From contig NZ_JADOBI010000014.1 of the NCBI RefSeq assembly GCF_015644585.1, positions 62,001-126,000 of the forward strand: a stretch of DNA of 64,000 nucleotides, in the 5' to 3' direction. Shown piece by piece: positions 31,048 through 63,096 of this stretch (positions are counted from its first letter, which is position 1; the number at the start of each line of letters is the position of its first letter). Both the position numbers and the translations under genes were made by a program. A model generated the notes under the pieces. That model was given only the letters and a program-made list of their open reading frames with translations, made no database searches and had not been told where the DNA came from. This DNA comes from Rahnella laticis. GTDB taxonomy: Bacteria; Pseudomonadota; Gammaproteobacteria; Enterobacterales; Enterobacteriaceae.

Positions 31048-32244
31048 ATGTTACGAGTTTTCGTGCTGTTCCTGATTGTGTTTGCCGGGATCATCGTCGG
31101 CCCGATACTGGCCGGCCATCAGGGCTACGTTCTGATTCAGACGGACAATTACAACATTGAAACCAGCGTCACCGGCCTGGTCATCATGCTGATCGTCCTG
31201 ATTCTGGTGCTGTTTTTCATCGAGTGGATCCTTCGCCGCGTTCTGCGCACTGGCGCACGGACATGCGGCTGGTTTGCCGGACGTAAAAGCTCCAAAGCAC
31301 GTAAGCAGACCAAAGCCGCCATGCTGAAACTGGCGGAAGGCGATCATCGGCAGATGGAAAAATTACTGGCGCGTAATGCCGATCACGCCGATCAACCGGT
31401 GGTGAATTACCTGCTTGCCGCCGAAGCAGCGCAACAGCGTGGGGATGATATCCGCACAAATCAGTATCTTGAACGTGCGGCAGAAATTGCCGATACCGAC
31501 CAGATGCCGGTGGACATCACCCGAGTCCGCATCCAGCTGGCGCAAGGTGAAATCCATGCTGCGCGCCACGGCGTTGACCGGTTGCTCGGGCAGTCGCCGC
31601 GCCATCCGGAAATTTTACGTCTGGCGGAACAGGCTTATCTTCGCACCGGCGCTTACGGTTCGCTGCTGGAAATTTTACCTTCCATGGCGAAAGCGGATAT
31701 TCATACCGACGACGAACTGCGCGTTCTTCAGGAACAAGCGTATATCGGCATGATGAACCAGCTGATGGCAGAAGAAGGCAGCGACGGCCTCAAGCGCTGG
31801 TGGAAAGATCAGAGTCGCAAGACCCGCCATGAGGTGGCGTTGCAGGTCGCGATGGCGAAACACCTGATTGAATGCAACGATCAGGATCTGGCGCAGGAAG
31901 TGATCCTTGACGGCCTGAAACGCCAGTATGACGATCGTCTGGTCGCACTGATGCCTAAGCTGCGTTCCGGGAATCCGGAGCAACTGGAAAAAACGCTGTA
32001 TCAGCTGATTAAACATAACGGTCCGTCGCCGCTGCTGAGCAGTACGCTGGGGCAGTTGCTGATGAAGCATGGCGAATGGCTGAAAGCGAGCGAGGCTTTC
32101 CGTGAAGCGCTGAAACAGCGTCCTGATGCTTACGATTACGCGTGGCTGGCTGATGCGCTGGATAAACTGCATAAACCGGCTGAAGCAGCAGAGATGCGCC
32201 GTGAAGGGCTGATGCTGACGCTCAATAACGATCAGCAGCTTTAA
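31048..32244 (+). CDS. hemY: HemY family TPR membrane protein
   Basis: 398 residues. Two transmembrane helices near residues 1-22 and 40-62, then a long helical TPR-like domain (clear repeat near the C-terminus, WLKASEAFREALKQRPDAYDYAWLADAL region). The proteobacterial HemY is not the protoporphyrinogen oxidase of Bacillus despite the shared name; its role is undefined. Last gene of the operon, followed by a strong terminator. Confidence 0.93.
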   Translation: MLRVFVLFLIVFAGIIVGPILAGHQGYVLIQTDNYNIETSVTGLVIMLIVLILVLFFIEWILRRVLRTGARTCGWFAGRKSSKARKQTKAAMLKLAEGDHRQMEKLLARNADHADQPVVNYLLAAEAAQQRGDDIRTNQYLERAAEIADTDQMPVDITRVRIQLAQGEIHAARHGVDRLLGQSPRHPEILRLAEQAYLRTGAYGSLLEILPSMAKADIHTDDELRVLQEQAYIGMMNQLMAEEGSDGLKRWWKDQSRKTRHEVALQVAMAKHLIECNDQDLAQEVILDGLKRQYDDRLVALMPKLRSGNPEQLEKTLYQLIKHNGPSPLLSSTLGQLLMKHGEWLKASEAFREALKQRPDAYDYAWLADALDKLHKPAEAAEMRREGLMLTLNNDQQL

Positions 32245-32316: not shown

Positions 32317-32520
32317 AAAAAAACACCTGCAATATAAGCAGGTGTATAAAACAATCAGGTCCAGGACAACAGATGAGTGCCTCACTCAACGTTTTGCCTT
32401 CTGGTTGATAGCGCATCAGCGTTATCGGTCAGGATGACAATAGGCACTATAAATTGGCTCTGCATCATTCCCAGGTTTATGAAGCCGGAGCAAACATAAT
32501 AGGTGGAATGAGCATCTACG
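32317..32520 (-). ncRNA. glmZ: Small RNA GlmZ
   Basis: About 204 bases, minus strand. The 5' end GTAGATGCTCATTCCA (32519 downward) is identical to E. coli GlmZ, and later blocks match in order: GGAATGA, CAGAGCC, AACGTTGAGTGAG. The glmS-pairing region falls near 32366-32389. The 3' end is a terminator, ACACCTGC / GCAGGTGT (32323-32345) plus seven U. Location downstream of hemY is the E. coli location. GlmZ, with Hfq, activates glmS translation; RapZ with RNase E cleaves it when glucosamine 6-phosphate is sufficient. Confidence 0.93.
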
Positions 32521-32529
32521 GCGTGAATA

Positions 32530-32547
32530 TTGCAGGAGGCGTGCCAG
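32530..32547 (-). promoter_or_regulatory. Sigma54-type promoter of glmZ
   Basis: On the minus strand, CTGGCACGCCTCCTGCAA matches the -24/-12 consensus except one T to C in the -12 element. The -12 C is at 32532, placing the start at about 32520, exactly at the GlmZ 5' end. A sigma70 promoter overlapping it is less obvious here. Confidence 0.82.
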
Positions 32548-32663
32548 TATGGCAATAGTCGATGTGAAATTTTTAATCTCATTGAAAAGTAAGCGTTTTA
32601 TTTTCCAGCTCAGCCAGAGTCAAAACGCTCCACGCTCAATAGCATTTCGCAACCACCTCAATC

Positions 32664-32681
32664 TGTCTCCGCTGAACGACA
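32664..32681. promoter_or_regulatory. GlrR-type activator site, promoter-proximal
   Basis: TGTCTCCGCTGAACGACA fits TGTC-N10-GACA exactly, the recognition pattern of GlrR (YfhA), the sigma54 activator of glmY and glmZ in many enterics. It lies about 145 bases upstream of the predicted glmZ start. Confidence 0.75.
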
Positions 32682-32726
32682 GCTAAAACCTTACCTGAGT
32701 GACTCTTTATTTATCAATAAGATAAA

Positions 32727-32744
32727 TGTCTCAAGACAGAGACA
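32727..32744. promoter_or_regulatory. GlrR-type activator site, middle
   Basis: TGTCTCAAGACAGAGACA fits TGTC-N10-GACA exactly, 63 bases (about six helical turns) from the proximal site. Confidence 0.72.
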
Positions 32745-32758
32745 GATAACAGGGGGAA

Positions 32759-32776
32759 TGTCGTGAAACGGCTACA
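32759..32776. promoter_or_regulatory. Imperfect third GlrR-type site
   Basis: TGTCGTGAAACGGCTACA matches TGTC-N10-GACA at 7 of 8 defined positions, 32 bases (three helical turns) from the middle site. Confidence 0.45.
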
Positions 32777-32810: not shown

Positions 32811-32838
32811 AAAAAAAACCTGCTTTAAAAAGCAGGTT
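32811..32838 (-). terminator. Terminator of the argX-hisR-leuT-proM operon
   Basis: On the minus strand, AACCTGCT (32838-32831), short loop, AGCAGGTT (32824-32817), then a run of T (A run at 32811-32818 on plus). It is 10 bases after the tRNA-Pro CCA. Confidence 0.9.
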
Positions 32839-32847
32839 TCTTAAATG

Positions 32848-32924
32848 TGGTCGGCGAGAGAGGATTCGAACCTCCGACCCACTGGTCCCAAACCAGTTGC
32901 GCTACCAAGCTGCGCTACTCGCCG
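32848..32924 (-). tRNA. proM: tRNA-Pro (anticodon TGG)
   Basis: 77 bases including encoded CCA. Starts CGGCGAGTAGCGCAGC; anticodon loop CTTTGGGAC-type with TGG; acceptor stem CGGCGAG / CTCGCCG. Last tRNA of the four-gene operon. It reads CCN proline codons, mainly CCA. Confidence 0.97.
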
Positions 32925-32983
32925 ATGTCGTGCATCTTACTACTTTATGATGCTAACTGCATCATTTAAATGAATTTTGTGTG

Positions 32984-33069
32984 TGGTGCGAAGGGAGGGA
33001 CTCGAACCCTCACATCCGAAGGACACTAACACCTGAAGCTAGCGCGTCTACCAATTCCGCCACCATCGC
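32984..33069 (-). tRNA. leuT: tRNA-Leu (anticodon CAG)
   Basis: 86 bases with encoded CCA and the long variable arm of class II tRNAs (TGTCCTTCGGATGT region). Anticodon CAG in GCTTCAGGTG. The acceptor stem is GCGATGG with CCTTCGC, leaving a U-U opposition at pair 5-68; the homologous pair in E. coli leuT (A-C) is also not Watson-Crick. It reads CUG, the dominant leucine codon. Confidence 0.96.
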
Positions 33070-33098
33070 ATGTCACAATCACAAAATCATTATTAGAG

Positions 33099-33175
33099 TG
33101 GGGTGGCTAATGGGGCTCGAACCCACGACAACTGGAATCACAATCCAGGGCTCTACCAACTGAGCTATAGCCACC
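33099..33175 (-). tRNA. hisR: tRNA-His (anticodon GTG)
   Basis: 77 bases with encoded CCA. The 8-bp acceptor GGTGGCTA / TAGCCACC includes the extra G at -1 paired with C73, the histidyl-tRNA synthetase identity element. Anticodon GTG in GATTGTGATT. Confidence 0.97.
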
Positions 33176-33237
33176 ATATCTCTAACTAACGTGAAATGTT
33201 TAATTCAACAATTCACCGCAACTCTAGCGCAAACTAA

Positions 33238-33314
<77 letters not shown>

Positions 33315-47899: not shown

Positions 47900-48226
47900 T
47901 TACAGATTAGCTGTTAAGAACTCTTTCAGCTGACCTTTCGACAGTGCGCCAACTTTAGTTGCTGCGACTTCGCCGCCTTTAAATAACAGCAGGGTAGGAA
48001 TACCACGGATGCCGTATTTAGGTGCAGTACCTGGGTTTTCATCGATGTTCAGCTTCGCGATGGTCAGCTTGCCTTCGAACTCAGTGGCAATTTCATCCAG
48101 AATCGGAGCGATCATTTTACAAGGACCACACCACTCTGCCCAGAAATCGACCAGCACCAGCCCTTCGGCTTTCAATACGTCGTTGTCGAAACTGTCATCG
48201 GTCAGGTGAATAATTTTATCGCTCAT
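47900..48226 (-). CDS. trxA: Thioredoxin 1
   Basis: 108 residues (E. coli 109 with Met). Active site W32-CGPC with Cys33 and Cys36; cis-Pro in [11 protein letters not shown]. General cytosolic dithiol reductant, also a processivity partner of some phage polymerases. Divergent from rhlB and upstream of rho, the E. coli order. Confidence 0.99.
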
Positions 48227-48344
48227 GTTCTACTCCAAAGGATTATCTTTACCTTGTTGATGTAGCATTAACCAACAGTAGGTTGACTTTATTTCACCGG
48301 ATACGCTTTCGTAAAGCAATAGTTAGCTGATATTCTACCACACT

Positions 48345-62716: not shown

Positions 62717-62808
62717 CTTTATTCTCCTGCCTTTTTGCGACAAGTGCAGAATATTATGCTGTTGCTCATTTTCCGACCCCGCTTCGCTGTTCTCTGAAAT
62801 TCCTGACC

Positions 62809-62842
62809 AAAAAAAAACCCCGGACCTTTCGGTGCGGGGTTT
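62809..62842 (-). terminator. ilvGMEDA attenuator
   Basis: On the minus strand AACCCCGCACC (62841-62831), loop gaaa, GGTCCGGGGTT (62826-62816) with one mismatch, then nine T. It lies between ilvL and ilvG. Stalling in ilvL at Ile, Val or Leu codons would favour the antiterminator and read-through. Confidence 0.93.
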
Positions 62843-62862
62843 CTTTTCAGGTTCAGGCTTGT

Positions 62863-62964
62863 TTAATAAGCCTTTCTTCGTCCAAGTGCAGCCCCGCACG
62901 GTGGGATAATAATCACCACCACGCTAATCACGACTAGGCTAACTACGAGGAGAAGGGCTTTCAT
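62863..62964 (-). CDS. ilvL: ilv operon leader peptide
   Basis: 33 codons: starts [20 protein letters not shown], ending [13 protein letters not shown] (written in two parts). 8 valines, 5 isoleucines (including a run of three) and several leucines act as the regulatory codons. It is nearly the same as E. coli IlvL with a three-residue longer basic tail difference (GRRKAY against GRGKA). Control is multivalent attenuation by charged tRNA-Ile, -Val and -Leu. Confidence 0.96.
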
Positions 62965-63006
62965 TTTTTGGTTTCTATAATTCATCTTGCGAACGATTGC
63001 CTACAG

Positions 63007-63035
63007 AGTTATCACAGTAATGCATTTAATGACAA
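63007..63035 (-). promoter_or_regulatory. Putative ilvL promoter
   Basis: On the minus strand TTGTCA (63035-63030), 17-bp spacer, ATAACT (63012-63007). The start would be about 35 bases before ilvL. Prediction by eye. Confidence 0.5.
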
Positions 63036-63096
63036 CACTTTTCTTGCGTTATTATTTGCGACGCGCTGCACAATCCGGCAAAAATAATCTGAAAAA

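Follow-up and report, generated by a model that had tools for sequence, protein, structure and literature searches.

The glmZ gene of Rahnella laticis is, judging from its sequence and from comparison with related genomes, very probably transcribed from a sigma54 promoter on which GlrR (QseF) would act from a distance, through three sites set at fixed intervals, and would control glmY in parallel. Because matches to the motifs concerned occur at chance level, the case for a sigma54/GlrR promoter rests on the position of the elements and on their conservation. The features that bear on it in the window, that is, the whole stretch of 64,000 nucleotides (64 kb) that was analysed, are these:

32317..32519, minus strand: GlmZ small RNA, 203 nt, from RF00083 and a terminator scan; 5' end at 32519 by homology
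32526..32555, minus strand: candidate sigma70 element TTGCCA-N18-AATATT, 9 of 12 matches, overlapping the sigma54 box
32531..32546, minus strand: sigma54 -24/-12 element TGGCACGCCTCCTGCA, at -27 to -12 if +1 is 32519
32664..32681, no strand assigned: GlrR-type site, exact TGTC-N10-GACA, centre -153.5
32727..32744, no strand assigned: GlrR-type site, exact TGTC-N10-GACA, centre -216.5
32759..32776, no strand assigned: GlrR-type site with one mismatch, centre -248.5
32848..33314, minus strand: tRNA cluster Arg-His-Leu-Pro, read towards glmZ; an upstream neighbour outside the promoter

The locus is an ordinary Rahnella GlmZ small RNA. Read from 32519 to 32317 on the minus strand, it matches Rfam family RF00083 over its full length (positions 1-214; 166.1 bits, E 1.5e-41), far above the gathering score of 60 bits, and the covariance model search thus confirms the GlmZ identity that an earlier note on this DNA had claimed and had proposed to check in this way. 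The 5' end coincides with the K-12 glmZ start as annotated in RefSeq, and the terminator scan places the terminator hairpin, with its T tail, at 32345-32323. The gene lies between the proM tRNA cluster and hemY (31048-32244, plus strand; HemY equivalog), with which it is convergent. When the gene order of E. coli K-12 is compared, glmZ there belongs to the same RNA family and likewise adjoins hemY, but aslB and aslA are located between proM and glmZ.

On the upstream side, tRNA-Pro occupies 32848-32924 (minus strand), and thrP lies beyond the tRNA cluster. The cluster is directed at glmZ, with 328 bp between the end of its last gene and the start of the RNA, an arrangement in which GlmZ might be cut mainly from read-through of the tRNA operon. 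This is exceedingly unlikely: a hairpin and T run 3' of the cluster (about 32811-32839; recognized by eye and absent from the terminator scan output) stand in between, and the promoter elements are in exact register with the RNA. With respect to the target of GlmZ, a 9-nt complementary run joins the RNA and the glmS leader of this genome (GACCTGATT/AATCAGGTC, -55 to -47 of glmS); runs of equal length arose in 9 of 1000 shuffles, a weak significance, and the duplex energy was without excess over shuffles, 207 of 300 being equally stable. Support from sequence for pairing of GlmZ with this leader is weak, and was counted against the main reading.

The -24/-12 element has a single mismatch to TGGCAC-N5-TTGCW, and its GG-N10-GC stands in -24/-12 register with an RNA start that is placed by homology. 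The earlier note had described an element ending 12 bases before the RNA, together with two exact TGTC-N10-GACA sites and one near match farther upstream, and both descriptions hold, with the element read from 32546 to 32531 and the site centres as listed above. The three sites are spaced by 63 and 32 bp. The palindrome of the middle site was also called as a hairpin by the terminator scan, and this call is taken to be a by-product of the symmetry of the site. Two candidate IHF sites with one mismatch each lie near -83 and -205, in a scan that carried no chance control.

Motif frequency was considered as evidence and rejected, with counts at chance level in both the window and the genome. GlrR-type matches with at most one mismatch number 24 in the window against 22.2 expected, and -24/-12 matches with at most two mismatches number 49 against 45.5; across the whole genome the reversed control of the exact GlrR palindrome has more occurrences (78) than the palindrome itself (63), and the exact -24/-12 pattern has 9 occurrences against 11. 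Arrangement is another matter. A pair of sites 62-65 bp apart is found at 94 of 114 glmZ loci, among the matches listed, and at none of 2580 control sequences made by shuffling 129 upstream regions 20 times each; the arrangement of motifs upstream of glmZ is not a product of chance.

Within the genus, 14 genomes (G000 to G013) were compared, 13 of which have sequence upstream of glmZ; G002 ends at the RNA start and was dropped. The sigma54 element is present in 13/13 loci, the sites centred at -153.5 and -216.5 have no more than one mismatch in 13/13, and the third site, at -248.5, in 12/13 at the same threshold, the exception being L016. In the alignment of these loci the GlrR half-sites stand out from variable flanks.

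For a wider survey, named genomes were scanned by a pattern that combined the 5' end of GlmZ with a block from within the RNA, which biases the sample towards GlmZ genes with those exact stretches. At least 117 loci were found, and seven were dropped for having upstream sequence of only 16 to 298 bases; the 114 loci used, all with at least 300 bases upstream, comprise 110 of those listed, to which the window, E. coli K-12 and two more genomes of the family were added. Some rows share a species or genus, so the counts that follow are not independent. Among the matches listed, GG-N10-GC is in register at 99 of the 114 loci, every time at -27, and the full triple of GlrR sites is present at 83 of 114. 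The pair occurs without the element at two of the loci listed, L059 (where there is a run of N) and Phytobacter L117. The distance from the promoter to the nearest site varies widely between genera in the loci listed, which was counted against the main reading, and the range of distances gives no hint of helical phasing between that site and the promoter. In Trabulsiella and four other loci (L044, L098, L079, L082, L073, L144), the sites lie much nearer the promoter, with the nearest centre at -87.5. Since it is the whole set that is nearer in these loci, the GlrR sites appear to move as a block.

The earlier note had concluded from the contrast with E. coli that control is "wired differently here". 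The contrast itself is right: K-12 glmZ lacks an in-register GG-N10-GC and has no GlrR-type site at up to one mismatch. The inference is the wrong way round, as element and site pair occur together at 92 of 114 loci among the matches listed, E. coli being the exception, and as the same control is published for other genera. In Yersinia pseudotuberculosis, glmZ transcription is reported to depend on sigma54 and on GlrR, and the published description of glmZ and glmY there, with sigma54 promoters, GlrR acting at upstream sites and putative IHF sites, resembles what is found or predicted here (PMC4585118). Sigma54/GlrR control of glmZ is also reported for Salmonella (PMC4098024, PMC4987338), where the accounts give sigma54-dependent expression, an overlapping sigma70 promoter and sites of the form TGTC(N)10GACA (the last in PMC4987338); sites of this form are present here too, and the other two features are predicted or candidates here. 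The sites differ in lying nearer the promoter, at -128.5 and -191.5 in the two Salmonella loci surveyed. Since these organisms are already described as transcribing glmZ from sigma54 promoters under GlrR, Rahnella glmZ is a further instance of a known mode of control. What is corrected is a view centred on K-12, for the strain behind much of the work on RapZ, GlmY and GlmZ lacks the GlrR-type elements that those 92 loci carry.

The genome also holds its own glmY (RF00128, 130.3 bits, L149:3705-3868), preceded by a -24/-12 box (TGGCACGGTTTGTGCT) and by GlrR-type sites at L149:3460 (exact), 3492 (exact) and 3555 (one mismatch), whose spacings are 32 and 63 bp. Nine loci, this one included (L022 to L030), were taken as glmY as weaker matches to the GlmZ model; four have spacings of exactly 32 and 63 bp, one has 33 and 63 bp, and in the remaining four, with one mismatch allowed, a single one of these spacings is seen. 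Gopel et al. (2011) reportedly found three sites per promoter. Three putative QseF sites have also been described upstream of glmY in Proteus mirabilis (PMC8745638). On the 3' side of the Rahnella glmY follow, in order, a histidine kinase ORF, QseG (269.5 bits; NCBIfam cut-off 234), GlrR (933 bits; cut-off 763) and a P-II protein. Among the best 25 of 82 family matches of the kinase none scored above its cut-off, and the name GlrK is given only from the location of the gene, between glmY and qseG. Genes for RpoN, RapZ and GlmS are found at other places in the genome, and the GlrR, QseG and RpoN ORFs are intact.

From these elements, their conservation and the partner genes, all of them observed, we infer a course of events that would run as follows. 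Phosphorylated GlrR would bind the three upstream sites and, through DNA looping helped by IHF, as reported for E. coli glmY (PMC6075780), would cause RpoN polymerase to form the open complex, with a start at about 32519. An overlapping sigma70 promoter may add a basal output. GlmZ would then activate glmS under the control of RapZ and GlmY. RapZ free of GlcN6P is reported to stimulate QseE/QseF in E. coli (PMC7073468), and if the same holds in Rahnella, a shortage of GlcN6P should therefore raise transcription of both GlmY and GlmZ rather than of GlmY alone. Transcription would then act alongside the protection that GlmY is known to give GlmZ. Rahnella would be a convenient test bed for induction of both RNAs by GlcN6P shortage.

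It is the sigma70-like sequence over the sigma54 box that calls for a refinement. The GlrR/RpoN control proposed in the earlier note stands as far as a promoter of sigma54/GlrR type is concerned, which sequence and comparison support well; exclusive control by RpoN is not established, the sigma70-like overlap having been missed. Dual control from overlapping sigma70 and sigma54 promoters, in which glmZ would be transcribed without GlrR and raised by it, is a variant of sigma54/GlrR control rather than its opposite, so that the two estimates overlap, and it is held to be slightly less probable than its absence. Both hexamers of the element are identical in 13/13 Rahnella loci, where much of the adjoining upstream sequence is variable, and overlapping promoters are reported for glmZ of Salmonella (PMC4098024) and for E. 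coli glmY, where sigma54 on the overlapping motif is described as repressing the weaker sigma70 promoter (PMC7073468). Set against this are a -10 hexamer that matches at only 4 of 6 positions and a spacer of 18. Two elements of such score occur in the 1151-base region, and shuffles give a mean of 1.4 (sd 1.2); since chance supplies this many, and since a score of at least 9 of 12 is reached at 14 of the 94 pair-bearing loci among the matches listed, the element is a candidate only. The last bases of TTGCCA, moreover, may belong to an extended sigma54 consensus.

The same element, together with the absence of sigma54 and GlrR elements from K-12 and some of its relatives, would also fit a GlmZ made from sigma70 alone, the sigma54/GlrR elements being relics of a promoter that is turning into one like that of K-12. 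Taken over the best of the allowed spacings, the sigma70 score is 8 of 12 in K-12 and the two Salmonella loci and 9 of 12 here, a comparison that was counted against the main reading. Relics are nonetheless very unlikely, for at two of the three sites no more than one of the 8 half-site bases differs in any of the 13 Rahnella loci while the flanks change, and the GlrR, QseG and RpoN genes are whole.

Among the matches listed, 20 of 114 loci lack the 63-bp site pair. The distance from tRNA-Pro to glmZ could be measured at 76 of the pair-bearing loci listed, where it is at least 253 bp, and at 11 of the pair-less ones, where it is 145-201 bp in ten and 433 bp in Hafnia alvei. Where the proM-glmZ interval is at most 201 bp, the pair is absent in 10/10 loci listed; a single site persists in two of these, both Pluralibacter, and the sigma54 element in five. 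AslA-like sequence is found upstream by tblastn in five loci listed and by annotation in K-12, and pair and element are absent in 6/6. Two others without the pair, Kluyvera intermedia and Escherichia EC7003, have upstream sequence too short for a cause to be assigned. In Samsonia, which lacks the 63-bp pair, the upstream neighbour is another ORF and two sites, with a spacing of 33 bp, are left; Pectobacterium also has another ORF upstream, yet keeps its sites, so that insertion as such need not remove them. The survey thus suggests that the switch disappears when one short intergenic interval is disturbed, although an association with insertion or deletion is no proof of cause.

In a tree built from HemY by a quick method, with 74 pair-bearing and 17 pair-less rows (91 in all), at least seven changes of state are required, four of them forced by well-supported branches; the tree is neutral between gain and loss. 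HemY of the window groups with three named Rahnella rows. Loss nevertheless appears likelier than gain, because the kept state is spread over Proteus, Providencia, Serratia, Pectobacterium and others. It can tentatively be proposed, with a little less than even confidence, that the 32/63-bp GlrR enhancer is an ancestral module that was copied along with the RNA gene at the divergence of GlmY and GlmZ, and that a shortage of GlcN6P would consequently feed transcription of both the decoy and the effector RNA in most of the order; the GlmZ arm would then have been lost repeatedly, in Escherichia, Kluyvera, part of Citrobacter and a few others, through aslBA insertion or proM-glmZ deletion, uncoupling GlmZ from GlrR. 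Among the publication titles listed for glmZ with aslA or proM, or for GlmZ with Rahnella, there is none on this loss or this genus; titles alone were covered, and both may well be reported. The survey of site spacing and loss may be new.

Citrobacter is mixed, the pair being absent in 6 of 9 rows among the matches listed. In four loci of this genus (L035, L090, L093 and L099) the sigma54 element is kept, no GlrR-type site is found at up to one mismatch, and tRNA-Pro lies 145-146 bp upstream; these apparently have a promoter left without its enhancer. Elsewhere in the Rahnella window, two further RNA leaders were recognized: Rev39_5p_UTR (RF02744), a family named for soft-rot enterobacteria, at 62732-63040 (minus strand; 182.8 bits), and the TrxA thermometer leader (RF02773) at 48197-48284 (minus strand; 105 bits).
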